In this document: positions 8,229 through 17,511 of the stretch, one piece after another
Layout: the number at the start of each line of letters is the position of its first letter
Position numbering within the stretch: position 1 is the stretch's first letter
Assembly: GCA_022571985.1 (NCBI GenBank)
Contig: JACZWU010000007.1
Coordinates: 89,986-153,985 of the forward strand
DNA: 64,000 nt
Origin: Candidatus Zixiibacteriota bacterium
Lineage (GTDB): Bacteria > Zixibacteria > MSB-5A5 > GN15 > FEB-12
Reading direction: 5' to 3'
Program-made: the position numbers and the translations under genes
Notes under the pieces: generated by a model
What the model was told of the DNA's origin: nothing
The model's input: the letters and a program-made list of their open reading frames with translations, nothing else
Database searches by the model: none

Positions 8229-10400
8229 ATGTTCGGCTATGATGACTTATCAATAAATTTTCTGACAGCAAGCCCGCTGGCGGTCTGGCTGATGCTGCTG
8301 GTTCTGACAGCTCTGGCAGTTTTTACATACTACCGTACCAATCCGCCGCTGCCCCGTTATTTGAAAATTATTTTAGGCAGCCTGCGTCTTCTGGCAATAG
8401 TCATGCTGATGCTGGCGCTGCTGGAACCGGTCATAAGTTTCAGCCGCAGCTATGAGCGTCCCCGGCGTATTTCTTTTCTGATCGACCGTTCAGATAGTAT
8501 GGAAAAAGTAGAAAATGGAAAAACCCGCCGGGCCAGAGTTGATTCACTTTTGTCATTATCTCTGTTTGAAAAACTACAGAGCGAGGCTTCTTTGGAAAAG
8601 TATTATTTTGCTGATATTATCTCTGCTGACGTTGCTGATATTTCCAGAGATAAGACTGCCATTGGTGATATTCTCTATGACATAGAAAGAATGGAGCTTT
8701 CTGAAGCTGTCGACTATCGTTTTATCTTAACAGATGGCAGTTCGAACTTTGGCAGGGATGTCTCGGCGGCGTCAGAGAATCTGTCCAGGCCTCTGTTTGC
8801 AATTGATATGGCCGCCGGCGGCAGTGAGTCGGACATTGCTATTAGTAAAATCGACTTTAATCCGGTTTTATTTGTCGGGCAGATTTCTTCAGTAAAGGTC
8901 AGCCTGAGCTGGCAGGGGCAGCTGCCGGAGAAAGTAATTGTGCGGCTGTCTGATTCCAGCAAAGTCTTAAAAGAGGCAAGTTTCCGGGCGACTCAGGAAA
9001 ATGGTCTGGCAGAGATAAGTCTTAAATACATTCCCGCAGGTCCCGGTCATAAAATTCTTAAAGTCAGCATTCCTCAGCTTAAAGGGGAGAGAAACAAACA
9101 GAACAATTCCCGTTCGTTTGCAGTCAAAGTATTAAAAAGTAAGATGTCAGTTCTGCTGGTGTCATCAAGACCGGATTACGAAGTTGGTTTTTTTAAAAGG
9201 TTATTTGAAAAATCAGACCGCTACGATATAAAGCTGCTTCAGACAGGCCAGAAAGCGCCCGCCCAAAAACTGAACTTTCCCGCTAAGCAGACAGAAATAA
9301 ACCGGTACGACCTGATTATTTTGCACGACCCCGACCCTCGCAGCTTACAGCAGTGGCGGCAGGTTATTGTCTCGTATCTTAACGACCGCGGCGGTTCTCT
9401 CTGGCTGTTATTGGGTGAGCAGTTTGCAGCGCGCGGTCCTGTTGGCTGGTTTAACGAATTGATGCCGTTTTATCAGAGTGCAAAATCGAATCTGCAATAC
9501 CGGGAGTTTCACGCCGAGCCTGTCGAGGGCAGTTTACTGCACCCGGCCAATCGGCTGGCCGCTGACCAGACTTCGATAAGACTGGCCTGGTCTGAGATTC
9601 CTCCGTTTAAATCTCTGGTCGTCATGGATGAACTTGACCCGGACGGCATAATTCTCTCAGAAACGGCCGATCTGAAGCAACCATCAAAGCGCCTGCCGGT
9701 AAGTGGCTATAAACGTCACGGTCCGGGGCGTGTTTTTGTCAGCGCCGCTTTACCATTCTGGTCCTGGGAGTTTGACAGCTACAGTTTTGAGTCGGGCGAA
9801 AAGTTTTTTGAAAAATTTGTCGAGGGCACGGCCAGTTGGTTAACTGTCAAAGAAGACCTGGAGCCGCTGCGAATCAGTCCGGTCAGAAAAGTTTTCAGCC
9901 GGGGCGAGGCTGTCAGGTTCGAAGGTTTCGCTTTCGACCTCGGTTTCAGACCTCTGCCGGGTGTCTCGGGAAATATCGAGCTGACCGGGCAGCAGGGACA
10001 AGAAACGGTTCTCTCAGACCTGATCCCTTATAAAGAAGGTGAGTTTAGAGCGGAGATTTTTAATCTGTCATCGGGCAATTACAGCTGGACGGGCAAATTT
10101 GAAAAAGACGGCCGTATCATACAGGAAGAAACTGGAAAGATTCTGGTGGAATCTTTCACACTCGAAGAGTTTGACTTAAGCGGCCATATAACCGAGATGA
10201 CAGCCATGGCCGCCCGGACAGGCGGCAAGTACTTTAAGTTCGACAAATTTGATGAAGCTATCGCGGCTCTGGATCTGCGGCCGGTCGAAGTATCCGAAAC
10301 CGGTGAAATAACTTTGTGGGGGAAACTCTGGCTGTTGCTTTTGTTTTTAAGTGCGCTTTCATTAGAATGGCTGTTGAGGAAAATATTTCAGTTAATCTGA
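8229..10400 (+). CDS. Membrane protein with von Willebrand A and glutamine-amidotransferase-like regions
   Basis: A 723-residue protein of unknown function. Two hydrophobic segments near residues 15-30 and 40-65 are followed by a VWA domain with the metal site LIDRSDSME (about residue 85). An Ig-like stretch comes next. A region around residues 355-410 (YDLIILHDPDP, then SLWLLLGEQ) resembles the ThuA/class I amidotransferase-like fold without a visible catalytic cysteine. The last 25 residues form another membrane helix. This layout matches BatA-type and 'VWA plus GATase-like' membrane proteins common in Planctomycetes and Bacteroidetes relatives. It is followed 21 bases later by the dehydrogenase gene, but no functional link is obvious. 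Confidence 0.7.
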   Translation: MFGYDDLSINFLTASPLAVWLMLLVLTALAVFTYYRTNPPLPRYLKIILGSLRLLAIVMLMLALLEPVISFSRSYERPRRISFLIDRSDSMEKVENGKTRRARVDSLLSLSLFEKLQSEASLEKYYFADIISADVADISRDKTAIGDILYDIERMELSEAVDYRFILTDGSSNFGRDVSAASENLSRPLFAIDMAAGGSESDIAISKIDFNPVLFVGQISSVKVSLSWQGQLPEKVIVRLSDSSKVLKEASFRATQENGLAEISLKYIPAGPGHKILKVSIPQLKGERNKQNNSRSFAVKVLKSKMSVLLVSSRPDYEVGFFKRLFEKSDRYDIKLLQTGQKAPAQKLNFPAKQTEINRYDLIILHDPDPRSLQQWRQVIVSYLNDRGGSLWLLLGEQFAARGPVGWFNELMPFYQSAKSNLQYREFHAEPVEGSLLHPANRLAADQTSIRLAWSEIPPFKSLVVMDELDPDGIILSETADLKQPSKRLPVSGYKRHGPGRVFVSAALPFWSWEFDSYSFESGEKFFEKFVEGTASWLTVKEDLEPLRISPVRKVFSRGEAVRFEGFAFDLGFRPLPGVSGNIELTGQQGQETVLSDLIPYKEGEFRAEIFNLSSGNYSWTGKFEKDGRIIQEETGKILVESFTLEEFDLSGHITEMTAMAARTGGKYFKFDKFDEAIAALDLRPVEVSETGEITLWGKLWLLLLFLSALSLEWLLRKIFQLI

Positions 10401-10421: not shown

Positions 10422-11561
10422 ATGAAAATTGCAGTTTTAGGCGCCGGGCTTATGGGACGCGCGGCCGTTTATGATTTGTCCCGTGCCGAAGGTGTCACGG
10501 CTGTCGGTGTTTTTGATATTGACGAAAAATTAGCGAACGAAGTTGCCCAAAGATATGGTAATAATATTGCAATAGCGGCTGCTCTTGATGCCGGCGATGC
10601 CGCGGCTGTAACTTCAGTCTTAAGAGATTACGATGCGGCTCTCTCGTGCGTGACTTACAAATTTAATTCGGGTCTGACCAAAGCCGCCATCAGCGCCAAG
10701 TGTCACCTGGTTGATTTGGGCGGCAACAACGATACGGTGGCCGAGCAGCTGGCCATGAATGATGAAGCTGAAAAAAATAATGTAATAATTATTCCCGACT
10801 GCGGCCTGGCGCCGGGGATGGTGGCGGTTTTGTGCGCCGATGCTTTCACTAAGTTTGACAAAATTTCTTCGGTCAAAATCAGAGTAGGCGGACTTCCGCA
10901 AAATCCGAGGCCGCCACTGAACTACCAGATGGTTTTTTCCGCCGAGGGTCTCATAAACGAATACTGGGAGCCCTGTGTTATACTTGAAAACGGCCGGAAA
11001 AAAACTGTCGAGCCGATGAGCGCAATTGAAGAGCTGGAATTTGAAACAATCGGAAAACTCGAAGCTTTTTATACTTCGGGAGGGACTTCAACGCTGCCGG
11101 ATAGTTATTTAAACAAGATTGATTTTTTAGATTACAAAACTATCCGCTACCCCGGTCATTGTGAACTGTTTAAAACTATGCTCGAAATCGGACTGGCCTC
11201 AAGAGAAGAAATCGATGTAAACGGCCAGAATGTAATTCCCAGAGAGCTTCTTAAGACGGTGCTAAATAAAAACCTTTCCTTTGATGAACCAGACTTAGTA
11301 TTGGTACGTCTTACTGCCGAAGGGAAACTAAACGGTAGAGACCATAAAGTAGTCTATGAGCTAGTAGACAGATTTGACCAAGAGACCGGCCTGACAGCCA
11401 TGATGCGCTCAACCTCGTTTCCGGCTGCGATAGTAACCTGGATGGCAGCCTCTGGCAAAATCAGCCGGCGTGGCTGCCAACCGCAGGAGTTAGTGGTTGA
11501 TTCAAAAGTATTTATAGAAGAATTAAGAAAACGCGGGCTTAATCTAACGATAAGAGAATAG
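10422..11561 (+). CDS. Saccharopine dehydrogenase family protein, probably lysine 6-dehydrogenase
   Basis: An NAD(P)-dependent enzyme of the saccharopine dehydrogenase-like family, 379 residues. The Rossmann loop is VLGAGLMGRA at residues 4-13. The central part contains LVDLGGNNDT and IIPDCGLAPGM, then the substrate domain with the RYPGHCELF stretch. The overall wording matches the lysine 6-dehydrogenase subgroup, which makes allysine from L-lysine. Saccharopine reductase or carboxynorspermidine dehydrogenase activity cannot be excluded. No other lysine genes are nearby. A ribosome site (AAGGG) precedes the ATG closely. It converges on the pseudopilin operon. Confidence 0.75.
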   Translation: MKIAVLGAGLMGRAAVYDLSRAEGVTAVGVFDIDEKLANEVAQRYGNNIAIAAALDAGDAAAVTSVLRDYDAALSCVTYKFNSGLTKAAISAKCHLVDLGGNNDTVAEQLAMNDEAEKNNVIIIPDCGLAPGMVAVLCADAFTKFDKISSVKIRVGGLPQNPRPPLNYQMVFSAEGLINEYWEPCVILENGRKKTVEPMSAIEELEFETIGKLEAFYTSGGTSTLPDSYLNKIDFLDYKTIRYPGHCELFKTMLEIGLASREEIDVNGQNVIPRELLKTVLNKNLSFDEPDLVLVRLTAEGKLNGRDHKVVYELVDRFDQETGLTAMMRSTSFPAAIVTWMAASGKISRRGCQPQELVVDSKVFIEELRKRGLNLTIRE

Positions 11562-11590: not shown

Positions 11591-12322
11591 TTACCAGAGG
11601 TCATGGGGAAAGACGATATCAATTTTTGTAACAGAAGCCGGCGTTATCGAGACAGAAATCGTGGTCGAATCATTGTCCGGCAGATATACCGCCGTCAGCC
11701 GATGATTTCCTATGGGAATTCCTGAAAAGGAAAAATTTCCTTTGGCATCAACCATGGTAACAGCGGTTGTCATGGCGCCGGTTCCGTCAGGGAATGTCAG
11801 ACGCAGCGCCAGCGAATCTTTATAGACAGCGCCCGGCATAGTTGAACTGGCATCAACGAGGTAGCCTGTCAAAGAATTTGAAAGCAGCGACAACGAACTG
11901 GCTGCCACCATTTTGTCGATATTGGCGCCGGAGCCGCTTGAGCGAATCAAGGTGCCGCTGTAAATGTAGTTAGCTCCCCAGCCATCCTGATTGTAGCCGG
12001 ATCCGCTTTCCAGATAGGGACCGTTCCAGGTGGCGTAACTGCCCGGGTTTGAAACCAGGGCGCTTAAGTCCGGAGGTAAGCTGCCAATATCGCCGACATA
12101 TCCAAAATCAGAACGGGCGCCGTTTGAGTAAAGCGCCGGATTGCCCACTATCGCAAAGGCCAGGGCGTCGAGCTCGGCTTTAGTATGCTCATGTTTGGCG
12201 GTGTCAAAAGATGAGGTCATGTTGACCATGGCGACTGCGGTGATAATACCGATGATAATGATTATTATGACCAGCTCTATCATAGTAAAACCGGAGTTCG
12301 AATTTAGTTTTCGCCTAATCAT
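11591..12322 (-). CDS. GspG-like pseudopilin with transthyretin-like domain (copy D)
   Basis: The last of four tandem paralogs, 243 residues. The N-terminus NSG/FTMIELVIIIIIIGI is a type IV prepilin signal, cut before Phe by prepilin peptidase, with Glu at mature position 5. The soluble part has the GspG-type signature: DFGYVGDIGSLPPDLSAL, then WNGPYL, then DGWGANYIY. A second domain (about residues 150-240) has the pattern of carboxypeptidase-regulatory/transthyretin-like folds: DSLALRLTFPDGTGA, then IPIGNHRLTAVY. It starts 6 bases after copy C. The family role would be an extracellular or periplasmic pilus-like filament of a type II secretion or type IV pilus machine; no ATPase or secretin gene is nearby. 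Confidence 0.8.
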   Translation of the reverse strand: MIRRKLNSNSGFTMIELVIIIIIIGIITAVAMVNMTSSFDTAKHEHTKAELDALAFAIVGNPALYSNGARSDFGYVGDIGSLPPDLSALVSNPGSYATWNGPYLESGSGYNQDGWGANYIYSGTLIRSSGSGANIDKMVAASSLSLLSNSLTGYLVDASSTMPGAVYKDSLALRLTFPDGTGAMTTAVTMVDAKGNFSFSGIPIGNHRLTAVYLPDNDSTTISVSITPASVTKIDIVFPHDLW

Positions 12323-12328
12323 ATTTTC

Positions 12329-13087
12329 TTAACTTCCGGTTGTGTCATACCAGACATTTTGTGACAGGAAATATTCGCCGTAGTGCCTTGATCTGGGGAC
12401 TATCGACACGAATCTTCTTATAGTATCATTAGTTGGTCCGTAGACGATTTCGATATCGTGGTTGCCTATCGGAACAGATTCAAATGAGAAAAAACCGCCG
12501 ATATCGGGCTGAGCAAGAAGCGAAGAGTAGCCGCCTGAGCCGTTGGGAAAAATCAGACGGACCGTTATTGAGTCACGATAAATTGGTCCCGGGGGAGTGC
12601 CGTCTAAATCAAGCAGAACTCCATCAACTCCATTTACTAAAAAATCGTTTAAGCTGGTCCCAAACTCCCTGACTATGTTAGAGCCGGAACCGCTTGAGGT
12701 AATAGAATTACCAGCGTAGCTGTAGACCGCGCCCCAGGCATCTTTCTTGTAGCCATCAGGGTCCTGCTCGAAGCGTCTCTTGATATAGGGACCGTTCCAG
12801 GTGGCATAGCCTCCGGGATTGGCAAAGAGAGCATCAAGATTGGGCGGCATAGAGCCAACATCGCCAACATAGCCAAAATCTGATCTGGTATTGTCGTTAT
12901 ACAAAAGGGGATTGCCGACAATGGCAAACTGCAGCATTTCAAGTTCCTGCTTGGTCTCTTCTTCTTTGGTAGTTTCAGAAATGAAAAAGGCAGAGCGCAT
13001 GGCCACAGTTGCCAGAATCGCAGAGATAACCAGCACGATGACAATTTCGATGAGTGTAAAGCCTTTTGTATTCATTTTATTTTTCAT
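12329..13087 (-). CDS. GspG-like pseudopilin with transthyretin-like domain (copy C)
   Basis: Third in the four-gene operon, 252 residues from the ATG at 13087. I prefer this start over the ATG at 13108 because it forms a TGATG overlap with the stop of copy B. The prepilin signal is NTKG/FTLIEIVIVLV. The GspG core shows DFGYVGDVGSMPPNLDAL, WNGPYI and KDAWGAVYSY. The second domain shows TPPGPIYRDSITVRLIFPNG followed by VPIGNHDIEIVY. Like copy D, it stops after this domain. The residues before the cleavage site are positively charged, as in all prepilins. Confidence 0.8.
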   Translation of the reverse strand: MKNKMNTKGFTLIEIVIVLVISAILATVAMRSAFFISETTKEEETKQELEMLQFAIVGNPLLYNDNTRSDFGYVGDVGSMPPNLDALFANPGGYATWNGPYIKRRFEQDPDGYKKDAWGAVYSYAGNSITSSGSGSNIVREFGTSLNDFLVNGVDGVLLDLDGTPPGPIYRDSITVRLIFPNGSGGYSSLLAQPDIGGFFSFESVPIGNHDIEIVYGPTNDTIRRFVSIVPRSRHYGEYFLSQNVWYDTTGS

Positions 13088-14346
13088 CAGTACTCTATCT
13101 CCAGCCATACTTGGGTAACGTAAGCAGGGGAACTTGCGTTTTGACCTTTAAGCGCCAGACCGGCTTCGAGATTAATAATGTCCGACCAGCTCCAGGCGCT
13201 GCCGCTGTTCGGATTGGAATTCCACTGGTAGCTGTAGTTACTGTATAAATTTGTCAAAGAAGATTCAGTGCCCTGGTACTCCACACTTCCGACATAGATA
13301 ACCGGCATAGCCGCTCCTGTATTTTTTTCTTTGCGTGCTCTGTAAAAAACAGTTACCCGTAAGATATCGCAGTCGGTGAAAGGAATATCTTCGATGGCGT
13401 AAACGTCGGTTGCATACAAATTGACTCCTCTTTCCAGACGGGTAGCGTCTTCATCTGAAGTTATTTCGCTGACGCACTGCCAGTTACTAACGCAGCCTGC
13501 TGTGGTTAAATTTGTGATAGAGCCGCTGCCGTTCGGACGCAAGATTAATACGCCGCTGGAGTCGCAGCCGCCGCCACCGCCTCCACCACCGCCACCAGAG
13601 AAGTAGCTCCCAAAAAACCTATAAGACTTGCTGTCTTTGTGGCGGGGATAGACAGTCAGGTATCTAAAAATTGTATCGACATTCGGGGTATAGATAATTC
13701 TCAAGGGATGTCTTCCTACCGGCAGTGAATCAAGAGTGAAATTACCGATCGAATCGGGATGGTAAAGTTTTGTCTGCGTGCCGCCGGCTCCGTTGGGAAT
13801 CGTTATCACAATATCAACAGAATCCTGATAGCTGCTGCCGGGTGGAAAGTTGGAGTTGTCTTTGATATCTCCGTAGACAGTGTTAAGCAGGTAATCCGAA
13901 GTTGCTCTGGCTATCTGTTTGCTTATTGTGGTGCCGTTGCCGGTAGATGAAATTATTACTCCGCCGGAATAATTATAGGCGGCTCCCCATTCGTCTGTTT
14001 TTAAACCCGTAGAATCCTGCACAAAGCCGACCGGCAGATACGGTCCGTCCCAGCTGGCATAACCGCCGGGGTTTGTATAAAGCGCGTTGATATTGGGCGG
14101 GAAACTGCCGACATCTCCGACATAGCCAAAATCTGTGCGGCCGCTGTTTCCGGTCAGGTCGGGGTTTCCAACTATCGAATTTGCCAGTATTTTCATTTCG
14201 CGCTCTGTTTTGATCTGGCGGCTGTCGTTAATGACCGAGGTCATCTGCTGCAGCGCCACGCCTATCAAAATTGAAATGATAATCAGCGCAATAGTTAGCT
14301 CAATAAGAGAAAAACCGGCTTGATTATTAAAAATATGTTTTTTCAT
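13087..14346 (-). CDS. Long GspG-like pseudopilin with poly-glycine linker and C-terminal beta domain (copy B)
   Basis: Second in the operon, 419 residues. The prepilin signal is NQAG/FSLIELTIALIII. The GspG core has DFGYVGDVGSFPPNINAL, WDGPYL and DEWGAAYNYS. The transthyretin-like domain has PPGSSYQDSVDIVITIPNG and LPVGRHPLRIIY. A run of ten glycines (around 13568-13600) then links to a third domain of about 150 residues with GCVSNWQCVSEITSDED and ending TQVWLEIEY. That pattern is seen in many jelly-roll-like surface modules. Only copies A and B have this third domain. It lies 19 bases after copy A and overlaps copy C in TGATG. Confidence 0.8.
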   Translation of the reverse strand: MKKHIFNNQAGFSLIELTIALIIISILIGVALQQMTSVINDSRQIKTEREMKILANSIVGNPDLTGNSGRTDFGYVGDVGSFPPNINALYTNPGGYASWDGPYLPVGFVQDSTGLKTDEWGAAYNYSGGVIISSTGNGTTISKQIARATSDYLLNTVYGDIKDNSNFPPGSSYQDSVDIVITIPNGAGGTQTKLYHPDSIGNFTLDSLPVGRHPLRIIYTPNVDTIFRYLTVYPRHKDSKSYRFFGSYFSGGGGGGGGGGCDSSGVLILRPNGSGSITNLTTAGCVSNWQCVSEITSDEDATRLERGVNLYATDVYAIEDIPFTDCDILRVTVFYRARKEKNTGAAMPVIYVGSVEYQGTESSLTNLYSNYSYQWNSNPNSGSAWSWSDIINLEAGLALKGQNASSPAYVTQVWLEIEY

Positions 14347-14365
14347 TAGTTCTATTTAACTGGTA

Positions 14366-15622
14366 TCAAAAAATTTCTGCCCAGACCTGCGAGCATCTGG
14401 CTTGATCTTTTAGTCCTACACCAATTTGAATATCGTTTAGTTCAGCCCAGGTCCATGGGGAAGATGTATCCGGGTTTGTTACATAGGTTGTTGAAAAAAC
14501 TGTGTAGGTTGGTGAGCTATTAAGGTTGTTATTGCCGCCGGTGTAGAGATTGCCATTGACCACAATCGTAGTTCGTGCTAACTGACCGTTGTCAGTAGAG
14601 CGTACCATTATGAAAATAACGATACTATCAATAGTGCCGCTGCCGACCGGGTCTTCTGCCTGATAGGTATCTTGAGCCCACGGTCCTGATCCGATTATTA
14701 CATAGGAACCGTCGCCGTCTGAGGTAACGTCGTTGACGCATTGCCAGTTACTGCTGCAGCCGTTACTGGTATGCTCGGTATAATCTCCAATTCCGTCAGG
14801 TCTGATAATAACCAAACCGGGACCAGCACCGCCTCCAGAACCCCAGGGATTGCTGAACAGCTGAACATCGACTAAGGCCAGCTCTCCCGGGTTAACTGCA
14901 ACTTTCCGTTTCAGGGTGTCATTGTCAGGCAGATAAACTGTTCTTAGGGTTTGAAGTCCAATCGGGACAGAATCGATCTGAACAAAACCATCGGAAGCGG
15001 GTGCTCTGGCTATGGTAACTGTTCCGCCGGTTCCGTCAGGATAAGTCAACAGGACATTTACAGAGTCTTTGTAGATTGGTCCGGGAGGGTTCTGGTTTAT
15101 GTCGGTTACGGTAACAGCCACGCTGTTGTAAAGTAAGTCGCTTACAGAGTTTGCAATTTTTCTGGTGATTGCCTGTCCGCTGCCGGTCGAAGTTATGGTT
15201 ACTCCGGATGAATAGACATATCCGGTACCCCAGTCATCGATTTTGAATTCAGAATTCGCGCCTCCTGAAGCAGCCAGGTAGTCGTCTTTCAAGTATGGCC
15301 CTTTCCAGGTGGCGAATCCGCCCGGGTTTATAACCAGCGCATCAAGGTTCACCGGCATAGAGCCGACATCACCGACGTATCCAAAGTCTGTTCTTGTTCC
15401 CCCTGAGACCAGTTCAGGGTTACCGGCTACTGCAAAGGCCAGTTCGTCCATTTCATCTTTGGAGCGTTCTGTGCGGACGGTATCGCTGGCGGTCATTAAA
15501 GTTTTTACAGACACGGCTGCAATAATCGAAATGATGATTATGACAACCATCAGTTCAATCAAAGAATAGCCTTTTTTCGAATATGAAATATGCAATCGCA
15601 TGCACTCCCGGCGTTTCGTCAT
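14366..15622 (-). CDS. Long GspG-like pseudopilin with C-terminal beta domain (copy A)
   Basis: First gene of the four-pseudopilin operon, 418 residues. The prepilin signal is SKKG/YSLIELMVVIIII, with Tyr rather than Phe at mature position 1. The GspG core has DFGYVGDVGSMPVNLDAL, WKGPYL and DDWGTGYVYS. The transthyretin-like domain shows PPGPIYKDSVNVLLTYPDG and VPIGLQTLRTVYLPDND. A short Gly-rich linker (GSGGGAGPG) leads to the third domain with GCSSNWQCVNDVTSDGD, ending CSQVWAEIF. An ATG at 15601 preceded by GGGAG is an alternative start that trims 7 residues. It heads the cluster, so the operon promoter should lie at 15623-15720; I found no convincing one there. Confidence 0.8.
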   Translation of the reverse strand: MTKRRECMRLHISYSKKGYSLIELMVVIIIISIIAAVSVKTLMTASDTVRTERSKDEMDELAFAVAGNPELVSGGTRTDFGYVGDVGSMPVNLDALVINPGGFATWKGPYLKDDYLAASGGANSEFKIDDWGTGYVYSSGVTITSTGSGQAITRKIANSVSDLLYNSVAVTVTDINQNPPGPIYKDSVNVLLTYPDGTGGTVTIARAPASDGFVQIDSVPIGLQTLRTVYLPDNDTLKRKVAVNPGELALVDVQLFSNPWGSGGGAGPGLVIIRPDGIGDYTEHTSNGCSSNWQCVNDVTSDGDGSYVIIGSGPWAQDTYQAEDPVGSGTIDSIVIFIMVRSTDNGQLARTTIVVNGNLYTGGNNNLNSSPTYTVFSTTYVTNPDTSSPWTWAELNDIQIGVGLKDQARCSQVWAEIF

Positions 15623-15775: not shown

Positions 15776-16102
15776 CTAAAAAGGGTCATTTTCCCAGTCT
15801 GACTCCTTGGGAGGAATTTTTACGACCAGATTAGCTCTGGTTTCGCACTGGCAGGCCAGACGTGAGGTCTCGGTCAGGCCTTCGGCTTCGTCCAGCATAT
15901 CCTGCTCGTCTTCGGTCATTTCATTAAGAGTATCAAAGCCCTCTACCACAATTATGTGGCAGGTGGAGCAGGCGCAGTTGCCGCCGCAATTATGGTCTAT
16001 GTGAACATCATTATCTAAGGCCGCGTCCAAAATGGGCGTCCCTGCTTCGACCTCAACTTCAACTTCAGAAGGCAAAAACTTTATCTTAGGCATCAAACTC
16101 AT
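15776..16102 (-). CDS. fdx: [2Fe-2S] ferredoxin, Isc type
   Basis: A small electron carrier with a plant-type [2Fe-2S] centre, 108 residues. The cluster cysteines are in HNCGGNCACSTCHIIV (C-x5-C-x2-C) with the fourth in RLACQC, the arrangement of adrenodoxin/Isc ferredoxins that feed electrons to iron-sulfur cluster assembly. The MTEDEQDMLDEAEGL segment is the usual acidic partner-binding helix. A clean ribosome site (GAAGG, 6 bases away) supports the ATG at 16102. It is the last gene of the iscA operon, 38 bases after the DUF2480-like gene, and is followed by a strong terminator. No iscS or hscA/B is present here. Confidence 0.9.
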   Translation of the reverse strand: MSLMPKIKFLPSEVEVEVEAGTPILDAALDNDVHIDHNCGGNCACSTCHIIVVEGFDTLNEMTEDEQDMLDEAEGLTETSRLACQCETRANLVVKIPPKESDWENDPF

Positions 16103-16140
16103 CCATATCCTTCGCTTCTACAAATTTTAAGAAGACAATC

Positions 16141-16398
16141 TTAATCCTTTTTTTTCCTGAACACAACCAGATTATCATGTTCATTTCCGAAGCGTACATT
16201 TTTGGCCAGATGTGCCAATTTCCCGGTTATGAGCATAAATGCCCAGGGGGGCATCAGAGCAGAGCTGCAGCCACGGACCAAGACTAGCTTGTTTTCAAAC
16301 TGCAACCAGTCAAATTTTTCCACTTTTTCAAGGAAAGCCACTTCTTTGAAAACACCGTTTTCGAGCAAATCTTCGGGATCCAGAACAGAAAAAGGCAT
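16141..16398 (-). CDS. DUF2480-like small protein
   Basis: An 85-residue protein of unknown function. The run FDWLQFENKLVLVRGCSS, then MPPWAFMLITGKLAHLAKNV and VRFGNEHDN, matches my recollection of the C-terminal half of DUF2480 proteins of Bacteroidetes (W.Y.gk.vai.Cs.dai.PtWAymLv), which are usually about twice as long. The conserved cysteine sits in RGCSSA. It lies 3 bases after iscA and ahead of the ferredoxin, so the operon suggests a role in iron-sulfur assembly or trafficking. That is inference only. The ATG at 16398 is followed by a plausible start (MPFSVLDPEDLLENG). Confidence 0.65.
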   Translation of the reverse strand: MPFSVLDPEDLLENGVFKEVAFLEKVEKFDWLQFENKLVLVRGCSSALMPPWAFMLITGKLAHLAKNVRFGNEHDNLVVFRKKKD

Positions 16399-16401
16399 AT
16401 T

Positions 16402-16761
16402 TTAGCAGCTAAATGAGGAGCCGCAGCCGCAGGAACGGCGGGCATTGGGATTAGAAAACGAAAAACCGGCGCCCATCAGGCCGCTTTTATAGTCCAGAAT
16501 TGTTCCGTTTAGTTGTACCAGTGCCTTTTCGGCAACCAGCACTTTGATGCCCCCAAAGTCGTATTCGCTGTCATTAGGCGTTTTTTCCGTATCAAATGCC
16601 ATTGTATATGACATTCCTGAGCAGCCTCCGGCAGCAACACCGATTCTCAAATATAGATTTTCATCTTTTTCCTGAGAAATCAGTCGTTTGACTTCCACCA
16701 TGGCATCCGGAGTTATTGTAATAGACATCTGCTGGACAGATTCTTTTATGTTTTCGGTCAT
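16402..16761 (-). CDS. iscA: A-type iron-sulfur carrier, IscA/ErpA family
   Basis: A small carrier that holds and delivers [Fe-S] clusters or iron to target proteins. The 119 residues end in the diagnostic NARRSCGCGSSFSC, giving the C-terminal Cys-Gly-Cys pair. The third ligand is in AAGGCSGMSYT. SITITPDAMVEVKRLI is the usual N-terminal start of the HesB fold. It could be ErpA, IscA or SufA; sequence alone does not decide. It is first in a minus-strand operon with the DUF2480-like gene and ferredoxin. A ribosome site (AAGGGAG, 7 bases away) and a promoter at 16790-16817 precede it. It faces an Rrf2 regulator gene. Confidence 0.88.
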   Translation of the reverse strand: MTENIKESVQQMSITITPDAMVEVKRLISQEKDENLYLRIGVAAGGCSGMSYTMAFDTEKTPNDSEYDFGGIKVLVAEKALVQLNGTILDYKSGLMGAGFSFSNPNARRSCGCGSSFSC

Positions 16762-16789
16762 TAAAAGGCTCCCTTATTCATTTCTCTAC

Positions 16790-16817
16790 AATCTATATCA
16801 ATTGTTTGCTCTGTCAA
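16790..16817 (-). promoter_or_regulatory. Sigma-70-type promoter for iscA
   Basis: On the minus strand, TTGACA (16817-16812) is followed after 16 bases by TAGATT (16795-16790, 4 of 6 to consensus). Start would fall near 16783, about 20 bases before the iscA ATG. Confidence 0.55.
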
Positions 16818-16953
16818 CCAGTTATAACAGACAATATAGTTGTCGGTTCCGGGATAATGACTCGTTAATCAAGTTAGCGATAGAAGATTTATGACAATTC
16901 TGTGACAGGAGTTAAATTAAGAAAAAATAATTCACAAATCGACAATAAATAGA

Positions 16954-16982
16954 TGGACAAATTGAATCTTTTTTCTTATAAT
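16954..16982 (+). promoter_or_regulatory. Sigma-70-type promoter for the rrf2 gene, with leader
   Basis: TGGACA at 16954-16959 and a perfect TATAAT at 16977-16982 are spaced 17 bases apart. Transcription should start near 16989, leaving about 94 bases before the ATG at 17083. The leader contains GGGA...TCCC and AGTC...GACT short stems (17007-17047). The 321-base gap 16762-17082 holds this promoter and the divergent iscA promoter; I see no gene in it. Confidence 0.7.
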
Positions 16983-17082
16983 CCCAATCAATATTAGGCA
17001 GAAAAGGGAACGCTTGCTCCCTGTTTGGCAGTCTTATGTGGACTGTAACGAATGACAACATGAAGAAAAGAAAGGTTTATCA

Positions 17083-17511
17083 ATGAGATTATCGCGGAAA
17101 TCGGATTATGCTTTGAGGGCTGTACGACATCTCTCCACACTTCCCAAGGACAGACTGGGTTCTATTAATTCAATATCGCAGGCCGAAAAGGTACCGCGTG
17201 AGTTTTTGGCCAAGATACTAAAGGACCTGACCCGCGGGGGAATACTTCGTTCTTTCCAGGGAGTAACCGGCGGCTACAGACTGTCCAAAGCAGCCAAAGA
17301 TGTTTCGTTTTTGAATGTAATCGAAATAATCGATGGTCCGCTTCGTATTAGTCTGGCTACTGATGGCAAGTCGAGAGCATTTTCCGGCGAGGGTAAAGCT
17401 GATAGCAGTTTCGAAAAATTCTGGAAAGACCAGGAAAAAACACTCAAGAACACTTTCAGCAGACAGACTTTTGGAAAGTACGCGCTTAAGGCCAAGAAAA
17501 AATCGAAATAA
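17083..17511 (+). CDS. Rrf2-family transcription regulator without cluster cysteines
   Basis: A 142-residue winged-helix regulator. MRLSRKSDYALRAVRHL, VPREFLAKILKDL and GVTGGYRLSK are the standard Rrf2 landmarks, covering most of residues 1-75. IscR, NsrR and RsrR bind their clusters with three cysteines between about residues 90 and 110. Here that stretch contains no cysteine, and indeed the whole protein has none. So a cluster-sensing role like IscR is unlikely unless other ligands are used, as in RsrR or cysteine-free CymR-type members. The C-terminus is Lys-rich. Divergence from the iscA-ferredoxin operon makes that operon a plausible target. A good ribosome site (AAAGG, 7 bases away) precedes the ATG. 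Confidence 0.85.
   Translation: MRLSRKSDYALRAVRHLSTLPKDRLGSINSISQAEKVPREFLAKILKDLTRGGILRSFQGVTGGYRLSKAAKDVSFLNVIEIIDGPLRISLATDGKSRAFSGEGKADSSFEKFWKDQEKTLKNTFSRQTFGKYALKAKKKSK

Follow-up and report, generated by a model that had tools for sequence, protein, structure and literature searches.

The window, a stretch of 64,000 nucleotides (C6:89986-153985 of a source genome of 2.93 Mb in 17 contigs), carries on its minus strand an array of four tightly spaced open reading frames, here called A, B, C and D. The array and its nearest neighbours are laid out as follows.

10422..11561, plus strand, saccharopine dehydrogenase-like gene, convergent downstream neighbour of the array, kept in relatives
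11591..12322, minus strand, array position 4 (D), ORF of 243 aa
12329..13108, minus strand, array position 3 (C), ORF of 259 aa
13087..14346, minus strand, array position 2 (B), ORF of 419 aa
13567..13596, minus strand, ten-glycine linker of B, in mixed GGN codons
14366..15622, minus strand, array position 1 (A), ORF of 418 aa
15776..16102, minus strand, 2Fe-2S ferredoxin, upstream neighbour of the array, kept in related genomes

Transcription runs from A to D, and the intergenic gaps A/B, B/C and C/D measure 19, -22 (an overlap) and 6 bp, so that A–D form an operon-like block; the ferredoxin gene lies on the same strand, 153 bp from A. An earlier reading of the sequence alone (the sequence-only reading) had described a four-gene operon of prepilins, and this description is borne out by the N_methyl profile PF07963, which scores above its curated cut-off in all four proteins (Pfam profile search). 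Comparison with three congeners yields dN/dS values of 0.03–0.16 for all domains of A–D; every domain is under purifying selection, and these values rule out pseudogenes or chance ORFs. A recent tandem duplication in the source genome was likewise rejected, the four genes being old paralogues whose positions have been kept across many genera. Promoter and terminator scans of the locus gave results close to the shuffled expectation and were left unused. Upstream of the array, genes for HesB/IscA, a DUF2480 protein and the 2Fe-2S ferredoxin share its strand (window 15776-17511), and a divergent gene for an Rrf2-family regulator lies near this stretch. Downstream, past the saccharopine dehydrogenase-like gene, lie a gene for a protein of 723 aa and one for a polyprenyl synthetase; the 723-aa protein (window 8229-10400) is conserved, and searches of Pfam and NCBIfam at the thresholds applied gave no match to it.

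The four proteins share a prepilin signal, a GspG-like core and a transthyretin-like domain. In A, the core spans residues ~19–160 and the transthyretin-like domain ~166–254, followed by a flexible linker (258–270) and a jelly-roll module, J (271–417). B has the same order, with the ten-glycine linker before its J module, and both C and D end without an extra module. In the AlphaFold2 model of A, which has a mean pLDDT of 82.5, a long N-terminal helix (21–66) is followed by the GspG-like region, a confident beta-sandwich at ~166–254, a low-confidence linker (262–268) and a jelly-roll-like domain (271–417). The transthyretin-like domain recognized in the sequence-only reading is thus supported by the sandwich in A, by a CarboxypepD_reg match in D (E 4e-5, below the cut-off) and in 15 of 42 relatives. 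The third domain, also claimed there, is indeed common to A and B (~150 aa), and the linker of B has exactly ten glycines; a phase-variable poly-G linker is ruled out, since the mixed GGN codons form no homopolymer tract.

The prepilin signal of A reads KGYSLIE, with Tyr as the mature N-terminus, a residue found there in position 1 of all 28 complete arrays that we compared. Among the 112 members of these arrays, Gly precedes the cleavage site (-1) in 109 and Glu5 of the mature protein is present in every one (28/28 at each of the four positions). With Gly at -1, a hydrophobic N-terminal helix and PF07963, the array proteins carry a class III signal. The motifs DFGYVGDxGS, W.GPY and D.WG..Y.Y are almost wholly invariant in the alignment of A–D, and the cores of B, C and D are 40–44% identical to that of A, the four being mutual paralogues. 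PF08334 (T2SSG, gathering score 21) is passed by D (23.1), with C (19.0), B (13.1) and A (12.3) below it. The GspG-like character proposed from the sequence alone therefore holds for the signature and, in D, for the T2SSG profile, but not at the level of the NCBIfam GspG equivalog TIGR01710, for which D, C, B and A score 44.1, 30.1, 20.5 and 27.2 bits against a cut-off of 88.85. A–D are GspG-like, yet fall short of this cut-off; 27 of 31 family members give a TIGR01710 match, at scores below it. In sequence searches of the PDB, the N-terminal pilin helix was the sole region matched.

In the family as a whole, the C-terminal module is the phage-virion-like jelly roll (J), a second sandwich (Y), a LamG lectin, another type, or none. 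The module classes come from single-linkage BLAST, in which class J also includes a few long proteins with LamG. Laminin_G_3 scores above its cut-off in three proteins from two relatives. In a PDB fold search, the hits of the J-containing model of A include rhamnogalacturonan lyase and several enzymes that contain carbohydrate-binding modules; Foldseek TM-scores of whole multi-domain models are low (0.2–0.3), as is expected because the domains are flexibly linked, and no type IV pilin appears among the top PDB hits of these whole-model searches. The same model matches a 173-aa phage protein (best TMt 0.77, 162 columns) and many other phage virion proteins, in agreement with weak PHROG matches. 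The dN/dS of J is about 0.09–0.16. The Y model finds generic Ig-like and transthyretin-like folds. PF01917 (Arch_flagellin) matches 6 of 42 members in module Y, with a best E of 7e-9 and those viewed individually below the cut-off; L058:9555-10688 and L036:9159-10307, members of alignment A3, are examples of this similarity. The module types are binding-type folds, and, as in modular type IV pilins, a linker joins the pilin module to an unrelated module.

A tree of 219 cores resolves the 112 members of the 28 complete arrays into four clades that correspond to the gene positions (best-split F1 of 1.0, 0.98, 0.98 and 0.98), and the gene order is kept in these arrays. The arrays are thus orthologous position by position. 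The modules are distributed differently. Position 1 is bare in 19 arrays and carries J in six, Y in two and another module in one; position 2 carries J in 17, Y in seven and other modules in two, and is bare in two; position 3 carries Y in 18 and J in five, and is bare in five; position 4 is bare in all 28. The commonest arrangement is bare-J-Y-bare, and that of the window's genus is J-J-bare-bare. The tree and the module classes show that modules have been exchanged within position clades independently of the orthologous cores, so that carrier and cargo evolve separately in the array. This provides a natural experiment, in which positions 1–3 tolerate large modules and position 4 never does. 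Of the two roles imagined in the sequence-only reading, a decorated filament or a set of alternative tips, the first is strengthened and made more specific, since the exchange of modules on orthologous cores supports well the idea of pilin subunits with alternative C-terminal modules. Alternative tips are at most a candidate role: as the four subunits are kept together in a fixed order, all with Glu5, co-assembly fits at least as well.

The sequence-only reading had also noted that no secretion machine accompanies the array. This is true of the 64-kb window but not of the genome. A scan of the source genome, family by family, ruled out the absence of a machine: it detected four PF00437 ATPases, two GspF/PilC-type platform proteins, eleven N_methyl prepilins and a single prepilin peptidase (Peptidase A24, C1:218.7 kb). 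The sequence-only reading had named the lack of a prepilin peptidase or of an assembly ATPase as a finding that would speak against it, and the genome has both. One set of these genes forms a T2SS-like operon with the order E-F-pilin-GspG-like-L-M-C-D (L125).

C1, about 183.9-191.7 kb, T2SS-like operon genes: ATPase, platform protein, 144-aa pilin, 155-aa GspG-like pseudopilin
The same operon, continued: GspL/PilM-like protein, 192-aa protein, 149-aa GspC-like protein, secretin

ATPase, platform, pseudopilin, GspL-, GspM-, GspC- and secretin-type genes are hence all present, the GspM-type assignment of the 192-aa protein, which has no family match, coming from its position (GspM/PilO) and size. 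All three components compared with NCBIfam T2SS equivalogs stay below the cut-offs (GspE 537 bits against 630, GspF 312 against 424, GspD 177 against 351), while PilB and PilQ give the ATPase and the secretin slightly higher scores; as the scores lie between T2SS and T4P, below both sets of equivalog cut-offs, we call the operon T2SS-like. Its 155-aa pseudopilin matches the array core with an E of 2e-34 over model positions 9–143, beyond the helix. The GspH-K set was not found in this operon.

The genome also encodes a separate T4P machine, with PilB, PilC, two PilT-like ATPases, PilMNO, a second secretin, PilA copies and PilV/PilW-like minor pilins. This machine could assemble A–D too, which counts against assembly by the T2SS-like system, and the array proteins might then be minor pilins that act as adhesins of the type IVa pilus and have no connection with the T2SS-like machine. 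In favour of this, PilB and PilC, the modular pilins already known, are T4P subunits (PMC8179133, PMC9934059). We nevertheless find this improbable: the GspG-like region of the cores is shared in full with the pseudopilin of the T2SS-like operon, related members lie inside that operon and not in T4P clusters, and the T4P already has a minor-pilin cluster of its own. Co-occurrence with T4P cannot tell the two machines apart, since GspL-type and PilM-type genes occur together in almost every relative (a GspL-type gene gives a strong match in 58 of 60). At L126:5449-10160, PilV- and PilW-like minor pilins precede a tandem of three PilX-like proteins (387–395 aa) whose C-terminal regions are long.

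Two conserved peptide patterns, searched across 84,980 species genomes, picked out 77 distinct loci. Most bear the label Zixibacteria or candidate division GN15; several are named no further than bacterium or FCB group, and two are labelled Calditrichota/Calditrichaeota. The family is matched in all 60 relatives searched, at a threshold that lets in ordinary pilins too; at a strict E of 1e-60, a member is found in 67 of 83 phylum genomes that are at least 90% complete and none is detected in 16, so not every genome requires these subunits. In many loci the array stands alone in the order HesB, ferredoxin, array, convergent saccharopine dehydrogenase, 723-aa protein, polyprenyl synthetase, and related Zixibacteria have the array as a constant feature. 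The recurrence of HesB and ferredoxin in many array loci makes iron-sulfur or redox control of the array possible.

At 19 other loci, proteins of the same kind are encoded next to gspF, gspG or gspL. In this second home, found in other Zixibacteria, one to three transthyretin-fused members lie inside a T2SS-like operon, typically between gspG and gspL; many lineages have a single such gene. Classified by the positions of GspL-type genes and family members, 55 relatives comprise 41 with the array only, 14 with the operon form only and none with both, among the matches listed (down to about E 1e-89). For 15 operon-type genomes, the full hit lists contain no separate array; some of these genomes are of the same species as operon-only relatives among the 14, so the sets are not independent. 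Three array genomes contain no operon copy. The two homes are mutually exclusive in the genomes checked. As they follow families closely, the independent events behind this exclusivity may be few.

We therefore regard A–D as probably modular pseudopilins of a T2SS-like machine, displaying predicted carbohydrate- or surface-binding modules. The GspG-like core and transthyretin-like domain would serve as carrier, and the swappable C-terminal binding-type modules as cargo. The prepilins would be cleaved by the single prepilin peptidase detected and assembled, most likely by the T2SS-like system on C1 instead of the T4P, into a putative heteromer of all four subunits, with filament contacts made by the pilin cores and by position 4, the subunit that bears no module. 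The modules of positions 1–3 would be presented at or beyond the outer membrane, where their presumed ligands may be polysaccharide, surfaces or secreted enzymes. The presence of Glu5 in all array members allows shaft positions for these subunits. Against this reading count the T4P machine of the genome, the sub-cut-off scores of the T2SS-like operon, the perhaps few events behind the exclusivity of the two homes, the 16 phylum genomes with no detected member, and the low whole-model TM-scores with no type IV pilin among the top PDB hits.

The array might instead replace the GspH-I-J-K tip complex and prime pseudopilus assembly, its modules being a secondary elaboration; this account overlaps with the preferred one, from which it departs in the placement of the subunits. 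It draws on the lack of a GspH-K set in the T2SS-like operon and on the four subunits in fixed order. It also draws on three operon-embedded loci of one lineage (L038, L074, L093), in which the last transthyretin-fused pseudopilin has Gly, Thr or Asp in place of Glu5, a substitution that may mark a tip subunit there; GspK and S. sanguinis PilA have been reported without Glu5 (PMC9934059). However, a Glu5-less capping subunit is found in none of the complete arrays, the cores are close paralogues of one another, unlike H, I, J and K, and many lineages have a single gene of this kind. We accordingly give this account little credence.

Even less probable, in our opinion, is that the modules hold secreted enzymes and the filament is a cargo-retaining surface scaffold, not an adhesin. 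Carbohydrate-binding-type folds often work alongside enzymes, and the machine is secretion-like. However, no consistent enzyme or partner gene lies beside the arrays in the loci read, where the genes conserved nearby are of iron-sulfur, dehydrogenase and polyprenyl type, and no cargo signal was identified.

Display by pseudopilins, the preferred reading, has precedents in T4P, to whose minor pilins the experimentally studied modular pilins belong. In S. sanguinis, PilB bears a vWA module grafted C-terminally, and PilC a concanavalin A-like module, placed after an Ig-like domain, that binds glycans; PF13385 and PF13620 are listed among the domains of known modular pilins (PMC8179133, PMC9934059). 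The array proteins resemble PilB and PilC in their prepilin signal, pilin module, linker and grafted C-terminal binding-type module, and in the grouping of several subunits. They differ from them in a GspG-like carrier with an invariant transthyretin-like domain, in forming four paralogues in fixed order with a link to a T2SS-like operon, and in having modules swapped among orthologues across related genera while one position is always bare. With T2SS GspG (TIGR01710, PF08334) they share the prepilin helix, the D.WG..Y.Y region and Glu5, but they lie below the equivalog cut-off, have extra transthyretin-like and third domains, and occur as four copies outside the operon. Like the GspH-I-J-K and PilVWX-FimT tip sets, they are four co-encoded type IV filament subunits; unlike these, their cores are close paralogues, all with Glu5, and their extra modules are C-terminal. 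The grafting logic of modular pilins thus recurs here in a T2SS-linked four-subunit set whose order is conserved across related genera, which suggests that some T2SS-like machines display proteins, beyond secretion alone. Our literature search found no paper combining ‘Zixibacteria’ and ‘type II secretion’. More tentatively, and with some doubt on our part, the arrays could represent a lineage-wide T2SS-like display platform, a hetero-filament of four paralogues in which positions 1–3 dock exchangeable lectin, phage-virion-like or other beta modules and the fourth is invariantly bare.

In a family that is otherwise of the operon type, two genomes of a single genus carry the array, with a clean operon in the one that was read. 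In the core tree, the array genes of this latter genome (L056) group inside the array clades, a placement that suggests horizontal transfer or an older origin, though it may reflect mis-binning. In two complete genomes (L055 and L070; L048 and L094), the family occupies two separate clusters, which gives the impression of a split or duplicated array.
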